Part shown: positions 51,265 to 64,000 of the stretch, in pieces
How positions within the stretch are numbered: the stretch's first letter is position 1
Layout: each line of letters starts with the position of its first letter
Source of the DNA: Lichina pygmaea
Taxonomy: Eukaryota > Ascomycota > Lichinomycetes > Lichinales > Lichinaceae
Length of the DNA stretch: 64,000 nucleotides
Direction of reading: 5' to 3'
Assembly (NCBI GenBank): GCA_963422465.1
Contig: OY730170.1
Location: 3,386,379 to 3,450,378 of the forward strand
Program-made: the position numbers and the translations under genes
The notes under the pieces: model-generated
The model's database searches: none
Seen by the model: only the letters and a program-made list of their open reading frames with translations
What the model was told of the DNA's origin: nothing

Positions 51265-54200
51265 CTAGATGTTGGAGTGTGAATAGTGAAGTTTGAAAGC
51301 CAGATTAAATTGGTTTAGTCTTTTCAAAGACATAAACCAGTACAGAAACTTCTGTAGAAGCTCTGGGTTTGAAATAATAGTAGTGAAATCTTGGGGGTTA
51401 AAGAGAGCATGTTGTCTTTGACTTGAGTAGAGAGAGCATGAAGAGGTGATATGCTTTACTGTCTCTTCTGCTTGACCACACATGCATAGGGGGGTAGGAA
51501 AGTCAGGGACTCCAGCTCTGAAAAGAAAACTTGCTAGACTAATTCTCCCAGTTCTGGTTTGCAGTAGTAGACTTGCCTCAGCTTTCTGTAGCTCTTTGTA
51601 GAGCTTTAGGTTGTTGTAGTGAGGTTTTTGGCAAAACACCTGCCATCCAGCATAGCCTTTTCTTTTCTTCTCCTCCCATTGGTTTTCCCACTCTTTAGTA
51701 AAGAGTATTTGTAGTTCTTTCTTTGAACTAGCCTGGTTAGTAGTTATTTGACTTAACCAAGTGAACTTCCAATTAGGAGAGATAGTTGAGGATTTCTTTA
51801 AAGGTTTCCTCAGTGAAGAAGTATAGGAAGAAATAGTAGAAAAGGTACTGTCAAGAAAGTCTTTCAGAGAGGAGGTTTGGATAGAAGATAGAAAACAAGC
51901 TGTGCGAAATTTAAAATAGAGATCTAGAGGTAAAAGAAAAAGCTCACTCTCTAATAGAAAAGAAGGAGTGGCTTTGAAAGCACCCCCAATAAGTCTCAGA
52001 CATTTGTTTTGGAATATGATAAGAGAGGAAATATTAGAGGATTTTCTGAGTGGGTTGAACCAAATTCCCACTGCATAGCTCAGTACAGATCTGAGTATTG
52101 CAGTGTACACAAGGCGTGCTGTGAGAACTGGAAAGCCCCAGGTGGAGTAAGAGGTTCTAGAAAGAGAAGATAGTGCTTTTTGTGCTTTTTGAAGAATAAT
52201 TCTCTGGTGTTTGTGCCAGTGGAGTTTGGCATCCAGGTACACTCCCAATACTCGCACTTCTTCTTTTGGTTTTAGAATCACATTCCCAAGTCTAAGCTTG
52301 AGCTGCAGATTGTCTGATCTTCTTCTGGAAAAATGAAGTATTTCATATTTCTCAGGAGAGAAGACTATTCCATGTCTTGCAGCCCAAGATAGACATTTAA
52401 GATGTGTATTCTTCAACTTCAGAAGGTTGCTTTTAAGAGAGTGTCCAAATGCAAGCAGATTTGTATCATCTGCAAATCCCAGAGCAGAAACACCAGTAGT
52501 AGGAGAATGTACAGTCTCATGAAGTTCAGAAATATAGAATAGAAAAAGAATAGAAGACAAAGGGGAACCTTGGGGAACTCCACAGTGAATAGGAATAGAA
52601 GAGGACTCAGAGTCATCAAAAACTAGAGTGGTGGTACGTCTGGTACAGAAAGAGAAGATCCAAGAAGTTAGCCAGAGAGGGATTCCTTTTCTCTCCAGAA
52701 TCTTTTGAAGAATCTCTGGAAGAACTCTGTCATATGCTCCTGAGATGTCCAGAGAAAGTAGAGATGCAACCATGCCTTCTTTCCAGACTTTTTCCACTTG
52801 GGAAGTTAGAAGGAAAAGTGCTGATTCAGTTGATCTGCCTTTCCTGAACCCCATCTGGATTTCTGGCAAGAGTTTAGCCTCTTCTGCTACCTTGCTTAGT
52901 CTGGCTGCTGTAATAGCTTCCATCAGCTTGCCAGTTGTGTTTAGCAGAGCTATAGGGTGCCAGGCTTTAGCTTGGTTATAGATTCCCTTGCCAGGTTTTC
53001 TTAGACAGACTGTTTTTGCATTCTTGAATTTCTCTGGAAAGTATTCCAGTCTCCAGCATGTTGATGTGAGAACAGCTATAGCTTGGCAGAACTTGGGACC
53101 CAGAGCTTTCAGAAATCCATTTGGCAGCTTGTCTTTTCCTCCTGCTGTAAAAGATTTCTTCTTGTTCAGAATTTGCTCCACTTCTTCAGTGGTAACCTCC
53201 TGAGAAAGCTGGATCTCTGGGGTACTCTGGTGACTTTCTGTACTTGGTTCTGGAACACGTGCTTCTGGAAAGAATTGAGCTGAGAAAGATTTTGTCTTCT
53301 CCTCAAAGCTTTTGGCTAGTCCTTCTTGAGTCTCCAGATCAGGGACCAGAGGAAGATCAGGGGTCTTGTTAGCTTTTGATTTTCCCCACTTTGCAAGCTT
53401 CCAGAATTTTGAGGAACTGGCTAGCTCATGAACTTGTTTTCTGAAGGTGTTCTGTTTGCCTTCTCTGACAGCTTTCTTCTTGAGCTTAGTTGCTTCTTCT
53501 AGCTCTTCTTGGCGTGCCTGTCCTCTGAGCACTTGTCTTCTTATTCTTCTTTCCTGCTTAACTTTAGTTTGGATCTCTTGGTTCCACCAGGGGACTGAGT
53601 GGCTAGATTGCTTCTGGAGTTCTGTGCATCTGTCTGCTATTTCTTGGAGAAAGTGGTTAAGATATTCCAAGTACTCATCCACTTCATGTTTATCTTGAAA
53701 GTGGAAGGGCAGCTGCAAATTATTACACTCTTGTTTTGCCAGGTTTGTGTCCAGTGTTTCCAGTTCCTTTCTGGCTTCCAGGTTTTTCTTGGTGAGTCCA
53801 GGTCCAGGCTAGTTAGCACAGGTCTGTGGTCAGACCCATGAAAGAACTGCAAAGCAATTTTAGAAAAGATTAGAGAGTTAGAAAGAGAAGAAGATATAAA
53901 GGAAAGATCAATAGGTGAACAGGGTTTGTGGGAAAGAGATCTAGCTCTTGTGGGTGTAAAAGGTGCAATAGCTAACTCCAGATTTGAGTTTTTCATTAGA
54001 GTTTGGAACTTGTGTGCAGTGTCAGAATATAGTCTTCTTTTCTTTGACCAGTCAGGGTGGTGAAGATTTGAGTCTGTAAGAAGAATATGCTGCCCTTTTG
54101 CTTGTAAAGCATTTTGGAGTAGACAGAGAAGAGCTTCTGATGCTTGTAGGTAGTTCTCTTGACTTGAGGGAGTGAAGTATAGATTATGCACCCACAGAGA

Positions 54201-54506
54201 AGTAGAGGTGTTTTCCAGATGAATTTCAAGAGAAACAAAGTCTTTACTCCAGAAAGTAGGGTGGAGAGATGACAGATTCAGGTTTTTGTTAATAAGAAAA
54301 AGAGTTCTACCAATCTCTGGAGAATATAAAGGAAGAAAAGAAGAAAAAACAGTTGAGGTGCTGGTTTGAAGGTGAGGATTCTTCCAGGGTTCTTGAAGTG
54401 CAATAATATCTACTTCTTGAAGAGTTGGGGTTGCTAAAAGTAGCTCTTGGACTGATTGGCTTTTCTGCACATTGTATTGAAGAAGTGTGAACTTTGTATT
54501 CTTCAT
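51265..54506 (-). pseudogene. L4 ORF2: endonuclease/reverse transcriptase, one frameshift
   Basis: About 1,080 residues would be encoded but for a single-base deletion near 53,757 (compare the same spot in L2 and L3). Endonuclease: LLQYNVQKS, DIIALQEPW, LLTDSNLHHPDW, IDLSFISSS, GSDHRPV. RT: AWHPIALLNTTGKLMEA, QMGFRKGRSTES, SLDISGAYDRV, CGVPQGSPLSSILF, FADDTNLLAF. The C-terminal zinc motif is CMCGQAEETVKHITSSC. No acidic RNase H residues are visible between RT and the terminal zinc motif. The enzyme would nick target DNA and prime reverse transcription there, by family analogy. The start codon overlaps the ORF1 stop as ATGA. Confidence 0.92.
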
Positions 54507-55945
54507 GTAGACATTTCATCTTCAAAGATCTTGAAGGGGTTGACTGACTGCTTTCCCCCTGTGTTTGTTGATCTTGTAGACAGAATTTGCACTTCTGGAG
54601 ACCCTCCTCTGAGTCTCTCTGAGCTTCTAGTTGGCTCTGTGGTTTTCCGTCTTTTTCCCCCTGGAAGAGTCTGTATGAAGGGGAAAGTAACTGGAGACTG
54701 TGTGACTGGGACAGTGGTAGCAGTGGAGATCTCATACTTCCCTGGGCGGGAAATCCATGCCTCTCTTGCCTTCTTGACTGCTTCTTGGCGTACTGGGCAT
54801 GTGCTAGCCCAGGCTGGGTGAGCTTCTTTGCAGTTGCTGCATTTTGGCTTTAGCAGTTGCTCAGGGATTTGGCAGGTTCTTCTTTCATGCTGGCCTCCAC
54901 AGGCACCACATACAGCTTGATTCCTGCACAGGCGAGCTTGGTGTCTATACCCAAAGCACTTGAAGCATTGTGCCACCACTGTGTTAGCCAGAAAAGGCTC
55001 TGCCTCATGCAATCTGTGGCCCAGCACTACTCCACTCTCAATTAGAAGATTGGCCTGTTCCGGAGTGGCCAGATCCAGGTGGAGTGAAGTAACTGGTTTC
55101 TTTTGAGCTATAGCCTTCTTTGACCAGTAGGCTCTTAGAATAGTGATTTGCTTGCTCAGGGATAGGTTGCTGTTCTGGATAGTCTGGCGAGTTTTTTCCA
55201 GGTTTTCTGGCTGGATGTCTGTGGTTCTGACTCCATGAATCAACACTGGGAATCTCTTGGGTTGGATAGTTGATTCCTTGGTAAAAATAGCTGATATCCA
55301 GGCAGAGTCTTTCTCCAGAAAACTCTTAGTCTCTTGAGTTTCAGTGTTAATAAGAATGTCCCCTGAGGGAAGTTTTCTCACTGCTCTGACTTGTTTATTA
55401 TAGGGACTGGGGAGTCTGTCTTGGAGAGCTTGAAAAAGCTGGATGTGAGTCCTGTTGGCTATATCAGGTGTCTGGTTACCAGGGTGGACAAGAACTTCCT
55501 TCAGAATCCTTGGAGCTAGAGGGATTTGAGCTGGGATATGTTTCTGAACAGCCTGGGCATATGATAGCTTAGATTCTTGCTTGTCTAGCCGCTTGCTAAT
55601 ATTCTCCAGCTCCTGGAAAATCTTGTTGGTCAGACCAGTGGGGAGAGACTGGGTTTTGGTGGACTGGGCTTCATTAGTACAAGAGTTTTTCTTAATATTC
55701 TCCCAGCTTTTCAGTACAGATTCTGGGGTAGCTTGAGTCTTGAGCCATGAGTCCAGTAGGTTGTAGTCATTCTGGAGAGCTGGATAGGGGGTAGAAGAAC
55801 TAGGCTGAGTACCAGCAGAACTGGGAGCTGGCATTGTTGGAGAAGGTGTTGTTTTTCTGGTAGTGTTCTGGGAGGAGTCCGGTTTCTTCTTTTTGACAGG
55901 CATAGGGTAGGTAACCTGCACAGTGGGTTGTTCACAAAGGGTCAC
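54503..55945 (-). CDS. L4 ORF1: zinc-knuckle RNA-binding Gag-like protein, intact
   Basis: An open frame of 480 codons. The start matching L3 is MPVKKKKPDSS at 55,903 (466 aa); an in-frame ATG at 55,945 adds 14 residues. In order: lysine-rich N-terminus, Ser/Thr/Pro-rich linker, coiled-coil-like LENISKRLDKQESKLSYAQA, a conserved middle domain (VRAVRKLPSGDILIN, FPVLIHGVRTTDIQPENL, TSLHLDLATPEQANLL), knuckles CFKCFGYRHQARLC, CGACGGQHERRTC and CSNCKEAHPAWASTC, then a Ser/Arg-containing tail ending FKIFEDEMST. It is expected to coat element RNA, by family analogy. Confidence 0.9.
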   Translation of the reverse strand: MTLCEQPTVQVTYPMPVKKKKPDSSQNTTRKTTPSPTMPAPSSAGTQPSSSTPYPALQNDYNLLDSWLKTQATPESVLKSWENIKKNSCTNEAQSTKTQSLPTGLTNKIFQELENISKRLDKQESKLSYAQAVQKHIPAQIPLAPRILKEVLVHPGNQTPDIANRTHIQLFQALQDRLPSPYNKQVRAVRKLPSGDILINTETQETKSFLEKDSAWISAIFTKESTIQPKRFPVLIHGVRTTDIQPENLEKTRQTIQNSNLSLSKQITILRAYWSKKAIAQKKPVTSLHLDLATPEQANLLIESGVVLGHRLHEAEPFLANTVVAQCFKCFGYRHQARLCRNQAVCGACGGQHERRTCQIPEQLLKPKCSNCKEAHPAWASTCPVRQEAVKKAREAWISRPGKYEISTATTVPVTQSPVTFPFIQTLPGGKRRKTTEPTRSSERLRGGSPEVQILSTRSTNTGGKQSVNPFKIFEDEMST

Positions 55946-57655
55946 CTGGTTCCTAGCAGTAATTGCACAATCCTGGGACCACTCCCCAAGACTGTACTTT
56001 CCTGGGCAGTCTTTTCCAACTAGACTCTAGGGAAATCTGGCTGTATTAACTCAAGCTGGAGACCACACCCCCTGCCTGAGCTTTCCTAGAGTTTTTCAAC
56101 TCTACCAGCACTAGAGGCAAGCTCTAAACTATTTCTCTTATCCTGGGAGCCCTGATCTCCTTGATGCTAGATGTTTCTCTTGAGAGAAGTTCAAGCTGTT
56201 ATCTGTCTGACTGGGAGTACTTGCTCAATCCTGGGACCACACCCCAAGACTGAGTGTTCCTAGGTAATTGGGGCCTGTCCCCAGTCTTTCAGAATCCCAC
56301 TGGCCACTCTCTGCCTTGTTATAGATAGTCTGTTGGTTGTTGAAGTTGAAGATCGAAGATTCAGAGATCACAACTTTTGACAAACAAGCTGGGTTACCCA
56401 AAGTGATGGGTTTTCACCTTAAGGTTTTGGTGGTTCCCAACAGATACTCGCTTGGTTTCCAGAACTTCTGACAAAGTCCGGTGATTATCAGAAGTGATGG
56501 TCCTTGAACGTAGTGGTACTGGGAAGAGTTTTTTGACTACCACTTCAATGGAATGAAGTGCAAGGTGACAGAGTTCATCTGCAACTGCGAACAGTGCGCA
56601 AAGAACAAGCCATCAAGACATAAGCCCTATGGGCAGGCACAGCAAATAGACCTACCTGAGGCACTATGGGAAACTATCACAATGGATTTTGTGGTCAAGT
56701 TGCCAAAGTCAACAGACCCAGCAACAAAGGTGGTATACGACAGCATTTTGGTGGTTGTTGACAAGCTCACCAAATACGCCCACCTGGTCCTGTGGAAAGA
56801 GTCAGGAACCACAAACAAACTTACAAGTGTCCTACTCAAAGAGCTGGTAAGCCACCAAGAGCTACCAAAGACAATCATCTCAGATCAAGACAAACTCTTC
56901 ACCTCAAAATTCTGGAACACATAGACAAGGCAACTTGGCATTGATACAAGGATGTCAACAGCCTACCACCCACAAACTGACAGACAAACTGAGCAGACAA
57001 ACCAGACAATAGAGCAGTATCTACAACACTACGTCAACCACCAGCAGGATAACTGGGTGGAACTGCTACCAATAGCCCAGTTTGCATACAACAACCAGCA
57101 ACACAGTGTGACAGAGACAACACTGTTCTTTGCAAACTACAGAAGAAACCCCTGATGGCAGGCAACAGCAGGAGGTAATATTGTTGATGTTAGCAAACTC
57201 ACTGCTATGCACAAGATAATGAAAACAACAATCAACTGTGCCCAGAACACCACCGCCCACTGATTACACGACAAAAGGTTAAAGGGACCAACCCTGGAAA
57301 AAGGGGATAAGGTCTACCTATTGACAAAAAACCTGCGCTCAAAGTGACCGAGCAAAAAGCTGGACCACGTACGAATCAGACTATTCAAAATCAAGAAGTG
57401 CACTGGGAAGGTCAACTATCAACTGAGACTACCACAAAAAGCAAGAATACACCGAGTATTCCACGTCTCACTACTCAAACCAGTACCCAGCAACGCAGAG
57501 ATCAAGACAGAATGGAACTTCAAGGATGACGAAGAAGAGTACAATATTGAAAGAATCCTGGATAGTTGAAGAAACAGACAGAAAACTGAGTACCTGGTGA
57601 AGTGGTTAGGATTTGACGAAGAGAAGAATTCGTAGGAACCAACCGAGAACTTCAG

Positions 57656-57963
57656 CTCTGCGATGAACCAGAAGCTGGTGGATTACCACCAAGCAAACCC
57701 GCAGTGACCAGGTCTGACAGGGATAACAGCTCAAGAGAAGCCAAAGTCTCTGAAGAGAAGACATCCTCAAAGGACAGTGGAGTAGCAGTCTGACTGGCCT
57801 CCTGTTTGCGGATAACACGGAGAGCCTCTTGTTCCTGAGCATCAAGGGACTTTTGATCCTTGATGGCTGACAGCTCACAACAGATGGCATCAGCCTCCTT
57901 CTGTGAGAGACAACCCAGCTGCCAGCAGAGGTGGATCTGCCAGGGAAGCAACTTTGACAATTG
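57656..57963 (-). pseudogene. A3 opposite-strand zinc-cluster ORF, C-terminal part only
   Basis: It encodes the coiled-coil and tail region (LLPWQIHLCWQLGCLSQKEADAI...DVFSSETLASLELLSLSDLV...SGSSQS). The zinc-cluster half is cut away by the A4 LTR starting at 57,964. Confidence 0.8.
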
Positions 57964-58402
57964 TGTTAAAGGCCAGTCCACGTTCACACAGAATGTGGGT
58001 GGTCCTGTCTTCGACCGAGGAGGGCAGGGACTCAATAGATGAATAGCAAGTGGGGTAACTCTCTTGCTATTGTCGCTCGTAATGTGCGTTCAGCCTGGAG
58101 AGCTAATCCCTCCGGGCTCTTTGGGGGTCTTTATACAGATGCCCCAAGGGGGGGGGTCTCCTTGAGGGGTATCATCCTTTTGCGTGGACGAGCTCCTCGC
58201 TTAGCTCCTGCTCGTCCACCGGACGAGCTCCTCGCTTAGCTCCTGCTCGTCCACCGGACAAGCTCCTCGCTTAGCTCCTGCTCGTCCACCGGACGAGCTC
58301 CTCGCTTAGCTCTTGCTCGTCCACCGGATCGGTCGGATGTTGTTCCGCATGACTCACACCTCTCCCTCGCTTACCTGGGCTGTTCCGGCCTAGGCCTTAA
58401 CA
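57964..58402 (-). repeat. A4 3' LTR (mosaic)
   Basis: 439 bp. The first 130 bp match the A2 LTR (GGCCAGTCCACGTTC, TCTTCGACCGAGGAGGG); the rest matches the A1 LTR (CTAATCCCTCCGGG, GGACGAGCTCCTCGCTTAG units). Four palindromic units lie at about 58,185-58,330. The polypurine tract in element sense is the reverse of 58,403-58,417. Confidence 0.9.
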
Positions 58403-58463
58403 CTATCCCCTCCCTCCAAGGGTTCTGTCCCCAGATCCTTTTTGTTCCTGCTCCTCTTTTGCC

Positions 58464-59036
58464 ATGAACCAAAGCCAGACAACTCGAACTCGTCGTCGCG
58501 GTTTTCTCTCTTGTCGTGTTGGCAAAATGGGCAAGGAATCAAAAATCGCATGCGGTGCTTGTCGTCGCGACCACGCCAAGTGTGTCGTGAGTTCTGCATC
58601 GTCTTTTTGTCGTCGGTGCATCGAGAAGGGTCGTCGCTGCGACCTTCATCTCTCGGAATCGGAATGGAAGAAGATGGAGCTTGAGCGTGAGCAGCTCGAG
58701 GCTCAGCTGCGGGAGACTGATGACCAACTGTCAAAACTGCTTCCCCGGCAGATCCGCCTCTGCCGGCAGCTGGGTCGTCTCTCACAGAAGGAGGCCGATG
58801 CCATCCGTCGTGAGCTGTCAGCCATCGAGGATCAAGAGTCCCTCGATGCTCAGGAACAAGAGGCCCTCCGCATTATCCGCGAACGGGAGGCCTGTCAAGC
58901 TGCTGCTCCACCGTCCTTTAAGGACGTCTTCTCTTCGGAGGCTTTGGCTTCTCTCGAGCCGTTATCTCCGTCGGACCTGGTCGCTGCGGATTTGCTCGGT
59001 GGTAATCCACCAGTTTCCGGTTCATCGCAGAGCTGA
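58464..59036 (+). CDS. A4 opposite-strand Zn(II)2Cys6 coiled-coil protein, intact
   Basis: 190 residues, start ATG 58,464, 61 nt inside the LTR border after a pyrimidine-rich leader. Residues about 32-61 form CGACRRDHAKC...CRRCIEKGRRC, a perfect C-x2-C-x6-C-x8-C-x2-C-x6-C with the CxxCR....KC start typical of GAL4-type clusters. Residues about 65-140 are highly charged and heptad-like (EWKKMELEREQLEAQLRETDD; EADAIRRELSAIEDQESLDAQ), suggesting a dimerising coiled coil. The tail is acidic/Ser-rich (DVFSSEALASLEPLSPSDLV). It would be read from an antisense promoter in or near the 3' LTR. The last 119 nt overlap the convergent 3' end of pol. The function is inferred from motif and conservation; the sequence gives no evidence of expression. 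Confidence 0.8.
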   Translation: MNQSQTTRTRRRGFLSCRVGKMGKESKIACGACRRDHAKCVVSSASSFCRRCIEKGRRCDLHLSESEWKKMELEREQLEAQLRETDDQLSKLLPRQIRLCRQLGRLSQKEADAIRRELSAIEDQESLDAQEQEALRIIREREACQAAAPPSFKDVFSSEALASLEPLSPSDLVAADLLGGNPPVSGSSQS

Positions 59037-62000
59037 AGTTCTCGGTTGGTTCCCACAAATTCTCCTCTTCGTCAAATCCTAACCACTTCACCAGGTACTC
59101 GATTTTCCGTCTGTTTCTCCGACTGTCTAGGATCCTTTCGACATCGTACTCTTCTTCATCGTCCTCGAAGTGCCATTCTGTTTCGATTGCTGCGTCGCTG
59201 GGTGCTGGCTCGAGCAGCGAGACATGGAATACTCGGTGTATCCGTGCCTTTTTTGGCAGTCTCAGTCGGTAGTTGACTTCTCCAGTACGCTTCTCAATCT
59301 CAAACAGTCCGATTCGTACATGATCCAGCTTTTTGCTCGGTCACTTCAAGCGCAGGTTTTTTGTTGACAAATAGACCTTATCCCCCCTCTCCAGGGTTGG
59401 TCCCTTCAACCTTTTGCTGTTTAGGCGGTGGCTTGTTGTCTTTTGTGCGGATTCAATTGCAGTCTTCATTTCCTCATGCATAGCAGTGAGTTTTTCGACG
59501 TTCGTTGAAGTGCCACTTCCAGCCGCCATCGCTTCCCAGCGGGGGTTTCTGCCGTAGTTCGCAAAGAACGGCGTCATGCCCGTCACGCTGTGTTGCTGAT
59601 CGTTGTACGCAAACTGAGCCATTGGTAGCAGTTCTACCCAATCGTCCTGTCGGTGGTTGACGTAGTGGCGTAGGTACTGTTCCATCGTCTGGTTTGTTCT
59701 CTCAGTTTGTCCGTCTGTTTGTGGATGGTAGGCAGTAGACATCCTCGTGTCTATCCCTAGCTGTCTTGTCCACGTGTTCCAGAATTTCGAGGTGAAGAGT
59801 TTGTCTTGATCCGAGATAATCTTCGTGGGTAGCCCTCGCTGGCTAACCAATTCTTTGAGCAGGACATCGGCGAGTTCGCTCGCTGTTCCTGTCTCTCGCC
59901 ACGGGATCAGGTGAGCGTATTTGGTGAGTTTGTCAACAACCACCAAGATACTGTCATATTTCACCTTTGTTACCGGGTCCTCTGACCTCGGCAGCTTCAC
60001 CACAAAATCCATTGTGATAGTATCCCAAGCCGCTTCTGGGAGGTCTATTTGTTGACTCTCTCCATAGGGTTTGTGGCGTGACAGTTTGTTTTTCGCACAC
60101 TCTTCGCAGTTGCGAATAAATTCCGTCACTTTCCGCTTCATTCCGTTGAAGTGGTAACGTCTCCAGATCTTTTCCAGGGTCTTGTCTTGCCCAGGATGTC
60201 CGTGTAGAGGTCCATCGTGATGTTGTCGAATCACGTCCTCTTGTGCGCTCTCTGGCACTTCTTCCTTGTTCGTGGCCGCAACGTTGTGGCCTAGGGTCAG
60301 GAGTGCACCCATTTCTTCAGTTTTCGCTAACTGAGGTTGAGCATAGACCAGAGTTTGTCCTTTTGTCACTAGGATTGGGCGCTCTTCTGTCGTGTCGTCT
60401 GTCGTCATATCAGGCCGTCTGCTAAGCGCGTCCGCTCGTGCGTTTTCTGATCCTTTTCGGTAGAAGATCTGGAAGTCGTATGAAGCTAAAAGCTCCGCCC
60501 ATCGGACTTGTCGTCTGTTTAGCTTCTTCGTCGTCGTGAAGTAAGCCAAATTCTTGTGGTCTGAGTACACGTCCACTGTGTACTTTGCTCCTTCCAGGTA
60601 AGGTCTCCACTCCTGGAATACGTCGACAATCGCTAACAACTCCTTGTCATGAACATCGTACCTGAGTTCTGGGCCAGAGAACTTTCTCGATCGGTATGCG
60701 ACAGGGTGTAGGCAGTTTTCGGCGTCTGGTTGACACAAGCAAGATCCAAGTGCTTGGTCCGAGGCATCTGTCTCCATGATGATCCGCCGTCCGGGATCAA
60801 ATGATGCCAGTATGGGTGCGGAGGTGAACTTCTCTTTCAGCTCCTGGAACACTCTCTCTTGGCTGTTCCCCCATGTGAAGGTTTCTTCCTTCTTTGTTAG
60901 TTCAGTCAAGGGTGCTGCTGTCCTCGAGTACTCCTTGATGAATCGTCGGTAGAAGTTCGCAAATCCCAGGAAGGATTGGACTTCTTTGAGGTTTTTGGGT
61001 GTTGGCCAGTCTCGTACTGCCGTGATCTTTGTATCGTCCATACAGATTCCTTCCGTCGTCAGGATCGATCCCAAATATTCCACTTCTTTCACGTGGAAGA
61101 CGCTCTTATCAAGGCGTAACCTCATTCCTGCTTCTTGGAGCGCATGTAGGATCTTCTTGACATGCTGTTTGTGCTCCTCCAGGGTTCCATTGGTGTAAAC
61201 CAAGACATCGTCGATATAAGCGGTAACAAATATATCCAGGTATTGTCGGAGGATAGCGTTAATGAGCGATTGGAACGTCGCCGGTGCATTCGTAAGGCCG
61301 AATGGCATAACGGTATACTCGTAATGCCCGTACCTCGTACGAAAGGCTATCTTCCATTCTTCGCCATCTTTCATCCTAACCAGGTTGAAAGCGCCTCGGA
61401 TGTCGAATTTGGTAAACCACTTGGCTCCTTGGATTCAGTCCTGGATTTCCGATATTAACGGTAGCGGGTAGCGATTCTTAATCGTGATCGCATTGAGCTG
61501 CCGGTAGTCGACACACAGTCGTAATTTGCCGTCTTTCTTTGGCACAAACAATATCGGGTATCCGGCCGGTGATGTTGAAGGTCTTATGAACCCTTTCGCT
61601 AGGTTCTCGTCCAGGTAATCTCTTAGGGCCTCAAGCTCCTTTGCTGATAGAGCGTAAATAGGGCCATGTGTGGGTTTCTTTCTGTCTTCCAGCGGAATTT
61701 CGTGATCCCACTCTTGGTGTTCTGGTAGCGTCGCGACCGCTTCCTCACCAAACATCTCCTGGTAGTCTTTATACTCACTTGGCAGCTGCGGTGCCTGAGT
61801 CTCGCCCACGGCGTCATGCGTGGTGCAAAGTTGATGGTTTCGGGGCTTCATCCAAGCCACATAGGCTCGCCCTCGCCGGTGGTGCTTCTTCCACCCTGCA
61901 TATAAGATCTCTTTGATTCTCACTTTCTCTGGCTCTGCTCGAGTTGCCAGACTCCTCTTCGGAAAGACTAGGTGCCTTCTTTTCCAGTCGATCCTTGGGT

Positions 62001-62412
62001 TTTGACTTTCCAACCACGGAAGACCTAATATAACTTCATGTGGTATCTGGACCAAGTCGAATTCTTCTGATCCGATTGTCGTACCGTCGACACACAGTCG
62101 TAGGTTCTTGGTCTCCTTCGTCACTCGTCCTTGGTCGTTGGAGAGTGGTGTCCCGTCCACTACCGTTAGTTGGTATGGATTCCTCTTTTCCTGAGTCGGG
62201 ATCTTGTGCTTCCTGGCGAAACTTTCTGACATGAAGTTGCCAGTAGCTCCAGAGTCGATCATGGCATTTGTCAGATGCCCGTTGACTCTCATCTTGATGC
62301 GAAAATGCGGACTGCAGGCTGTCGCGTCAAGGCTCTGCTCGACCCCTTCTCTCCGGAGTGTTGTCTTGCCTGCTCTTCCGACTCCGGATTTGAAGAGCAC
62401 TGCTAGTTTTTT
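58918..62412 (-). pseudogene. A4 pol: protease-RT-RNase H-integrase-chromodomain, two TGA
   Basis: Read by -1 shift from gag. Protease [12 protein letters not shown] (about 62,255), [22 protein letters not shown] (about 61,510), MPFGLTNAPATFQ, YIDDVLVY (about 61,205), RNase H ETDASDQALGSCLC (about 60,765) and [12 protein letters not shown], integrase HHDGPLHGHPG...NCEECAKNK (about 60,220-60,095), core MDFVVKLP, SDQDKLFTS, YHPQTDGQTERTN (about 60,010-59,690), then after TGA 59,341 a module ending in chromodomain YDVERILDS...EYLVKWLGFDEEENLWEP (about 59,165-59,060) and a basic tail. TGA 61,435 replaces the Trp TGG still seen in A1 and A3. Domain order protease-RT-RNase H-integrase-chromodomain defines a Ty3/Gypsy chromovirus. 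Confidence 0.9.
62352..62412 (-). promoter_or_regulatory. A4 -1 ribosomal frameshift signal (heptamer + H-type pseudoknot)
   Basis: In the gag frame TCA AAA AAC TAG contains A AAA AAC (reverse of 62,406-62,412), a classical -1 slippery heptamer with the stop as the next codon. A 6-nt spacer (TAGCAG) is followed by stem 1 TGCTCTTC/GAAGAGCA (62,392-62,399 with 62,371-62,378). The loop TCCGGAGT (62,381-62,388) is the exact complement of ACTCCGGA (62,352-62,359). After a -1 slip the reading continues CTA GCA GTG ([13 protein letters not shown]) into protease. Confidence 0.85.
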
Positions 62413-63947
62413 GAACAACCAAGGCCCTGAGCCTGGCGTTCTGCCGCATGTCTTTCGCATTTTTCAGTGAAGCATAGCTCCCATGCGTCTTCTCCGCAAT
62501 CATCGTGTTCTTTCCCTTGCTGGCTTAGCTGGTGCTTGATGCTCCAGGCTTTCTTGTGGTATTCTGGGCCAGGGAAGTGGTGCCTTCTCCTTTTCTCTAG
62601 GAGATGTTCCTTGCAGTGGTGGTCCTCACATCCTTTCCAATAAGGACGTCTGCAGGCTGGTGTCGTAGCCTGGTGATAGTCCACTTGCGCTGCGATGTCT
62701 CGGGGCTGTGAGATGCTGATGGTGTCGTCCACCCATCGCGTCACTCTTGCTTCGCCGTCCTCCGACAAGGTCGCATCCTGTCGTCGGAGTAGTGGTGTCT
62801 CGGGAACTGGTGGCATGCCGGTTATGTCAATCTCGTAGTCTGTTGTGTCGAATTCGGAGATCAGGTCATCCTCCCAATGAACCTTATCGATCTGGTCTTG
62901 GATTGTGTGCAGGTCCTCCAGTGACCTCTGCAGATCGTTCTCCAGTCTTTCGATGTGCTGTCTGAGATTGTCCTCCTGTCCGAGGAGTGTTGCTTCTGAC
63001 CGGTTCATGGGTAGCGTGCCTCTGGGAGCCCTCGGTGGCTCCTGAATGCCCTTGCCTTTCCAGGCACCGGTGGCATTCAACTGCTTACCCTTGCCTTCTT
63101 TCTTCTTCTTGCTTTGGCAGTTGGCTGCGAGGTGTCCTACCTTCTGGCAATTGTAACACTTCCGTGTTTCTTTCTTCTTTGTTGCCTGTGGTGTTGTTGC
63201 ATCGATCTCCATGGGTGTCAAGCTGTACTTGTCTTGTGCTGGCGCTGTCTTTTTGCCCCATGGCCTTGCATGCTTGCCTCGCTTCTCGAGTTCTCGTTCA
63301 AACTGTCGGTCGTCGATGCGTACCGCTGTGTCGATCATATCCTTGAGGTCGGTGGGTCGATCTCCTCGTGCGATGTCATCCTTGACTCGTTCCTTGAGAG
63401 CTTGGTAGAATAGTGCCGTCAAGGCACTGTCTCCCCATTGCGTCCTCACTGACAACTGTTGGAACTTCGCCGCGAAGTCTGATGCTGACCCTGTCTGCCG
63501 TAGTGCTTGGAGCTTTCGTTCCGCATCTCATTCTTCATCAATGACCCCGAAGGTCTTCTTCATCTGGGTCTTGAAGGTAGAGAATCTCCCAATGATCTGC
63601 CGTGTCGTGGTCTCCATGCTAGAGGGATCTTCCTTGTTGTCGAGGAAGTCTCGTAGGTAGACATTAAACCAGGCAAATGTCGGTCCGTCCAGGTAGGAAG
63701 CTGCGAACAGCACCTTCTCCTGTTCTGTAGGGAATTGTGCGGCGTTGAATCCGTAGTAAAGCTCAAGCTGAGAGAAGAATAATTCCAATCCCCCTCGTGA
63801 TCCATCGTACCTCTTCGGCATACCTACCTTCAACGGCTTTGGAGGTAAGGTGAGGGTGGTAGGGACAGGTGGTTCCTGGGCTTGCGCCTGAGGCGCAGCC
63901 CGAGGTTGGCCTGCCTGCGAAGGGGTAGGGCTGCGTGGATCTGCCAT
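62403..63947 (-). pseudogene. A4 gag, one TGA
   Basis: 515 codons from ATG 63,945-63,947 (MADPRSPTPSQAGQPR) to TAG 62,403-62,405. Capsid-like GGLELFFSQLELYYGFNAAQ, TFAWFNVYLRDFLDNKED, FQQLSVRTQWGDSALTALFYQ; zinc knuckle CYNCQKVGHLAANC (about 63,110-63,152); coiled-coil-like LRQHIERLENDLQRSLEDLH; then two C-W-C-C-H modules, CRRPYWKGCEDHHCKEH (about 62,610-62,660) and [17 protein letters not shown] (about 62,465-62,510). The TGA at 63,528-63,530 corresponds to CAA in A2, consistent with an ancestral CGA. Confidence 0.9.
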
Positions 63948-63985: not shown

Positions 63986-64000
63986 TGTTAAAGGCCAGTC
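63986..64000 (-). repeat. A4 5' LTR, first 15 bp only
   Basis: TGTTAAAGGCCAGTC at the window end. In element sense the adjacent internal sequence (reverse of 63,970-63,985) is GTTTCAGCCTCTAACA, the same self-priming-type primer site as in A3. Confidence 0.88.

Follow-up and report, generated by a model that had tools for sequence, protein, structure and literature searches.

The window, which is the whole stretch of 64,000 nucleotides analysed here, contains a Ty3/Gypsy chromovirus with protease, reverse transcriptase (RT), RNase H, integrase, chromodomain, a pair of long terminal repeats (LTRs) and a target site duplication, and the insertion is complete in outline (Table 1). The pol of this copy is interrupted by a stop codon at 59341-59343. 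The element is nested, in opposite orientation, inside the antisense ORF of an older copy of the A type described below (57606-57963; L039 1004-1270; duplication AATTG). Elsewhere in the window, a LINE-like element with RT and endonuclease domains and long frames on the minus strand occupies positions 51265-55945, and by eye it has an ORF1-like frame with cysteine motifs.

Table 1. Features of the chromovirus and of its antisense ORF in the window.
Feature	Position	Strand	Basis or remark
Antisense ORF, A type, 190 aa	58464..59036	+	Frame reading, dN/dS, genome matches
Putative Zn(II)2Cys6 cluster, residues 30-59	58551..58640	+	Exact spacing, kept cysteines, dN/dS 0.07 (residues 27-62), PF00172 16.4 bits
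3′ LTR, 439 nt	57964..58402	-	99.1% identical (4 mismatches) to 5′ LTR, L039 565-1003
5′ LTR, start	63986..64000	-	Extends past the window to about 64424 (L039 565-1003)
Target site duplication AATTG	57959..57963	.	Same 5 bases outside 5′ LTR
U3 of 3′ LTR, with 35-bp tandem repeat (about 58186-58325)	58106..58402	-	R/U3 border predicted
Sense TATA box, TATAAA	58130..58135	-	Sequence
Polypurine tract (PPT) adjoining 3′ LTR	58403..58417	-	By eye
CGG-N12-CCG in U3, candidate site only	58330..58347	.	A/B position match by eye
pol: RT, RNase H, integrase, chromodomain (about 59005-59148)	58918..61374	-	Pfam, frame
pol: aspartic protease, RT start by position	61435..62460	-	Protease by Pfam, RT start by eye
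gag frames, CCHC knuckle	62403..63947	-	Capsid-like matches below their cut-offs
Cassette indicated as exchanged: U3, leader with PPT, antisense ORF, pol tail, most of chromodomain	58106..59122	.	Fixed A/B differences

A preliminary description of this DNA had drawn attention to a stop-free frame of 190 codons opposite gag-pol and had placed it between pol and the 3′ LTR. Reading of the window bore out the frame, which runs on the plus strand from an ATG through 190 codons to a TGA (58464-59036), with gag-pol on the minus strand. The placement held on the side of the 3′ LTR (57964-58402) but not on the side of pol: the pol frame continues to its stop at 58918-58920, inside the span of the antisense ORF, so that the pol tail and the chromodomain end share their DNA with the final 39 antisense codons. 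With this overlap of 39 codons, the frame is of the aORF-3R kind, an antisense frame from pol to the 3′ LTR. The predicted protein is laid out as an N-terminal Zn(II)2Cys6-like module, a charged middle and a mildly acidic, leucine-rich tail. Zn(II)2Cys6 factors have a linker and a dimerising coiled coil after the cluster. The heptad-like region that had also been described was not significant, shuffled sequences reaching its a/d count in 330 of 5000 cases for A and in 794 of 5000 for B, and the described acidic tail proved only mildly so by its counts of K/R against D/E over residues 120-190 (3 against 8 in residues 120-150, and 1 against 5 in residues 151-190).

Copies of the antisense ORF and its zinc-cluster motif

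The genome searched was the window's own (32.47 Mb, 8 contigs). Out of 279 candidates, at least 150 scored matches were of the A type (190 aa), to which the window copy belongs. A second type, B (176 aa, about 60% identity to A), had 61 matches with 85-94% identity to P0017, assigned to B by script. The sequences fetched were the best-scoring 48 of the 150 A copies, a choice that enriches the A sample for intact copies, all 61 of B, and 6 from C, a third lineage that has decayed. As the copies were found via the ORF itself, the count covers ORF-bearing copies only; one gapped A copy was left out of the cysteine, other-frame and dN/dS counts, which are given for 47. An open antisense frame was present in 26 of 48 A copies, 53 of 61 B copies and none of the 6 C copies, and in the part free of pol each of the other five frames was open in none of the 108 gapless copies (47 A, 61 B). 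In the protein alignment of A and B, inspected by eye, many Arg codons are replaced by Cys, His, Gln or Trp and Glu by Lys, a pattern in line with C-to-T decay after insertion.

Residues 30-59 of the window copy read CGACRRDHAKCVVSSASSFCRRCIEKGRRC, which is exactly the C-x2-C-x6-C-x8-C-x2-C-x6-C spacing first reported for it. Zn(II)2Cys6 clusters have the spacing range C-x2-C-x6-C-x5-12-C-x2-C-x6-8-C, within which both A and B fall (x2-x6-x8-x2-x6) and which was reached by 1 of 200,000 shuffles of the 190 residues. Of the 47 A copies, 46-47 retain each of the six cysteines, as do 59-61 of the 61 B copies. The proposed check against PF00172 returned a match that was weak: the window copy scored 16.4 bits (E = 0.0099) against a gathering cut-off of 21 bits. 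The best of the copies scanned was P0005 with 20.0 bits; P0017, L009 and L010 had 14.9 bits, and no scanned copy reached the cut-off. At E <= 0.1 there was no match for P0021 and P0032, and 4 of the 15 members of set A2 matched while 11 did not. Over the whole genome PF00172 gave 27 matches at E <= 0.001, the antisense ORF not being among them. Since its scores are below the cut-off, the protein is not classed here as a formal member of PF00172; its sequence only suggests Zn(II)2Cys6 membership, and it may still work like one.

Other searches added little. A search of solved structures aligned PUT3 at the cluster with E = 0.13-0.17, which is not significant, and in a profile search of solved structures nothing was significant and PUT3 was absent at E <= 1. 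A search of NCBIfam gave nothing near any cut-off, and one of viral contigs found no relative. The antisense protein is like the fungal Zn(II)2Cys6 factors (PF00172; GAL4, PUT3) in its cysteine spacing, its basic residues and the N-terminal position of the cluster. It is unlike factors of the GAL4/PUT3 type in falling below the Pfam cut-off, in having only 190 aa and in being encoded by a retrotransposon, and it differs from the fungal factors also in the 8 residues between the third and fourth cysteine, which lack a proline. Capture of a host gene was considered as a possible origin; three protein searches, all requiring shared 5-residue words and one of them scoring the 8000 best candidates, gave only proteins of the A/B kind.

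Selection on the antisense frame

A and B were compared in all 47 x 61 = 2867 pairs. Over the 137 shared codons that are free of pol, dN/dS was 0.20 (median dN 0.25, median dS 1.23) and reached 1 in 0 of the 2867 pairs. The zinc cluster was the most constrained part (0.07, residues 27-62), followed by residues 63-151 (0.16). The first 26 codons were hardly constrained at all (0.79, with values of 1 or above in 577 of 2867 pairs), which makes a translation start of A at Met22 possible; 39 of 47 A copies retain this methionine, and 55 of 61 B copies have one at the matching position. In the overlap with pol, dN/dS was 0.55 for the antisense frame against 1.49 for the frame of the pol tail, the latter from one pair, and here the antisense frame is more constrained than the pol tail. 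The single pair L001/L009 gave 0.175 (bootstrap 0.09-0.30, Fisher P = 2e-14), and codons nearly fixed (90%) in both types gave 0.12 (Fisher P = 6e-10).

The frame controls, made with 20 x 20 pairs, gave 1.2 and 1.9 for the other plus frames and 1.2, 0.39 and 1.5 for the minus frames; the value of 0.39 was put down to shared codon phase, and the frame concerned was open in no copy. CpG decay as the cause of the low dN/dS was ruled out, codons free of CpG giving 0.19. Inside the families, selection was not seen: the ratio of nonsynonymous to synonymous variants was 1.31-1.55 in A and 1.85-3.00 in B, against expectations of 1.88-1.93 for transitions and 3.0-3.1 for changes of all kinds. Such near-neutral variants are to be expected if most of them arise after insertion. 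Purifying selection on the ORF is thus shown between the lineages, not within them, and the dN/dS of the antisense frame, for which a value near 1 had been named among the signs against such a gene, is about 0.2 between lineages and near neutral inside each family.

That this frame, lying in the element's 3′ untranslated region, is open by chance is exceedingly improbable. Some GC-rich antisense frames do stay open by chance, and the near-neutral variants within the families would suit this, but a dN/dS of 0.2 between the lineages, the kept motif and the lack of any other open frame in the part free of pol speak against it, and the A-B dN/dS together with the frame controls refutes it. The antisense ORF is a true gene of the retrotransposon, and the earlier proposal that the element carries a conserved antisense gene is supported by the between-lineage dN/dS and the kept cysteines.

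The cassette of U3 and antisense ORF

When the 47 A and 61 B copies were aligned over about 57930-59373, all 276 of 276 fixed differences (a threshold of 75% in each type) fell within 58106-59122, and no column of 57963-58105 had a different commonest base in A and B. Inside the cassette a few stretches are common to both types, namely the LTR end with the PPT (58379-58428, 3 fixed differences) and 58929-58953 (none), and the repeat region around 58204-58228 had no fixed difference in the 8 columns left. Outside it, A and B are close. The final 1450 nt of pol ahead of the ORF gave dN 0.022 and dS 0.059 in 96 pairs (8 A x 12 B, those with at most 2 stops among the 38 copies with long flanks). 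Compared in steps of 100 nt with L041, the one B element to which the whole-length comparison of the backbone refers, all aligned copies being used for the flanks, the window copy was 90-100% identical across gag-pol from 59164 on and 100% identical in the first 100 nt of the LTR; identity was 58-83% over 58064-59063 and 89% over 59064-59163.

The median distances lead to different groupings for the two parts. In R-U5 they were 0.028 between A and B, 0.007 within A, 0.009 within B and 0.135 between B and C, and in pol beyond 59131 the same distances were 0.054, 0.029, 0.042 and 0.143. In the U3, by comparison, A and B were 0.30 apart and B and C 0.167, and in the ORF 0.304 and 0.234, where all distances to C are inflated because the C copies are decayed. 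The backbone groups A with B and the cassette groups B with C, a pattern which faster evolution of the cassette alone would not yield. The type of U3 agreed with the type of ORF in 48 of 48 A copies and 61 of 61 B copies, and all 6 C copies had a B-like U3. It is therefore strongly indicated that U3 and antisense ORF were exchanged together as one cassette, and the linkage between them could be explained by physical proximity alone.

From the TATA box at 58135-58130, the usual spacing between TATA box and start places the transcript start, and with it the predicted start of R, near 58100-58110. The distance from the box to the cassette boundary at 58106 is 24-29 nt, and the LTR edge of the cassette thus coincides roughly with the predicted transcription start. 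The first strand transfer of reverse transcription occurs at R. The cassette probably arose in a particle in which two kinds of element RNA were copied together, an intermolecular first jump at R placing one of its edges at the U3/R border and one later switch of template placing the other within the chromodomain. Such an origin accounts for the edges without any functional pairing, which weakens the case for U3 and ORF as a unit. Most of the chromodomain (59005-59148) is also inside the cassette, and for this reason A and B possibly differ in chromatin targeting.

Related antisense genes and proposed function

Zhao 2011 is said to be the source for brtn of Boty. This antisense gene of the Boty element of Botrytis cinerea, cited in passages of PMC7264820, PMC8365987 and PMC4227169, is, like the antisense ORF here, an additional antisense gene in a fungal Gypsy element; a Boty-like element is given in the available text of PMC4227169 with gag, RT, IN and chromodomain, and a BRTN-like transcript in that of PMC5987419 for Monilinia. 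For brtn, neither a zinc cluster nor a selection test nor an exchanged cassette is stated in these passages, the comparison being one of descriptions only. In plants, antisense ORFs from pol to the 3′ LTR are described in portions of PMC7264820 and PMC11963269 for Grande (gene23), RIRE2, Retand (TRP28 domain) and PvRetro13. They have the same place and orientation as the ORF studied here, nuclear location or DNA binding is suggested for some of them in these portions, and gene23 is reported there to be transcribed in antisense; they encode different proteins, and the word "zinc" is absent from both papers. The 2020 review (PMC7264820) regards the function of such antisense genes as not known and clear resemblance to other proteins as not described so far, and the 2025 paper (PMC11963269) adds that Retand has a predicted DNA-binding domain. 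A figure legend of PMC2864245 names an additional ORF of unknown function, and the word "antisense" was not found in PMC2864245, PMC11540331, PMC5872316 and PMC4595289. In the open-licence literature, as far as its texts were available, no report was found of a zinc cluster in such an antisense gene or of an exchange of U3 plus antisense gene, and an earlier description is possible. Antisense genes at this place are hence already known; what is new is a U3-ORF cassette that differs on a shared backbone.

We hold it slightly more probable than otherwise that the element encodes a zinc-cluster, DNA-binding regulator of its own LTR, more likely an activator. Transcription of the gene would begin on that side of the 3′ LTR where U3 and PPT meet, from an antisense promoter presumed to be in the U3; the protein would re-enter the nucleus, bind the U3 of the element's own LTRs and tune the transcription of gag-pol, as an activator rather than as a repressor. 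We infer zinc binding, DNA binding, antisense transcription, the U3 as target and the sign of the regulation, and the preference for activation is a guess from the composition of the tail. Unlikely, though to be taken seriously, is that the real antisense gene instead serves as a repressor or copy-number limiter, its protein or its antisense transcript lowering the output of gag-pol in a role like that of HBZ. HBZ is a retroviral bZIP protein, and no sequence relation of it to the antisense ORF is claimed. It is likewise an antisense gene controlled by the 3′ LTR in HTLV-1, and retroviral genes of this sort are described in the abstract of PMC10186651. The antisense reading would be convergent with gag-pol, which suits a repressor, while the C-terminal part resembles an acidic, hydrophobic activator tail, in resemblance only, and would count against one. 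Quite improbable, in our estimate, is that the protein of this real gene acts on nucleic acid or on integration, for example in nuclear import of the pre-integration complex or in target choice, and that it was exchanged along with the chromodomain. Cysteine-rich basic modules are in general able to bind nucleic acid, and the cassette takes in most of the chromodomain, but the cysteines are spaced as in Zn2Cys6 domains, typically found in transcription factors, and on its other side the ORF is linked to a promoter. Such roles are treated in sections of the plant review (PMC7264820).

It is possible, if by our judgement a little short of probable, that the exchanged block reflects recombination during reverse transcription and nothing else, with breakpoints at the sites most prone to template switching and with U3 and ORF travelling together by proximity, free of any functional pairing. 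A single exchange suffices for this, and the LTR edge of the cassette is near the predicted R start, the site of the first strand transfer. This explanation leaves the purifying selection on the ORF unexplained, and the pairing is kept in 109 of 109 amplified A and B copies, though two amplified lineages alone would suffice for that. The ORF can be a real gene even if recombination of this kind took place, and the likelihoods given here for the several readings are not shares of one whole. More doubtful, and put forward tentatively, is that a regulatory module of zinc-cluster regulator and cognate U3 was exchanged between element lineages in the manner of a phage immunity region, giving separate regulation on the same replication backbone and allowing amplification side by side in one genome. 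Phage immunity regions consist of a repressor plus its operator. There, too, a putative regulator and its control region are swapped as a block between near-identical backbones, which is an analogy only, and unlike them the cassette here probably stems from template switching in reverse transcription.

For the reading as a regulator of the own LTR, the antisense protein has a recognisable candidate activity and predicted target, selection on it can be measured, and a single genome contains two natural alleles on one backbone that differ in their promoters, so that the role of such genes becomes directly testable. The question raised is whether each protein acts on its own U3 and not on the other's.

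Zn(II)2Cys6 domains bind two zinc ions and recognise CGG triplets in DNA. The U3 was not enriched in CGG or CCG (15 and 15, against 14.7 and 13.4 in shuffles). The candidate CGG-N12-CCG is present in the same part of the U3 in 24 of 48 A, 34 of 61 B and 1 of 6 C copies; as the motif occurred anywhere in 164 of 1000 shuffled U3 sequences for A and 122 of 1000 for B, its significance is low. By eye, the U3 repeat contains inverted repeats, GGACGAG..CTCGTCC in A (58186-58325) and similar arms in B (L009, about 1255-1395). In C (upstream of L073-L075) both arms have changed together to GCAGAG..CTCTGC, as if the pairing or palindrome were kept.
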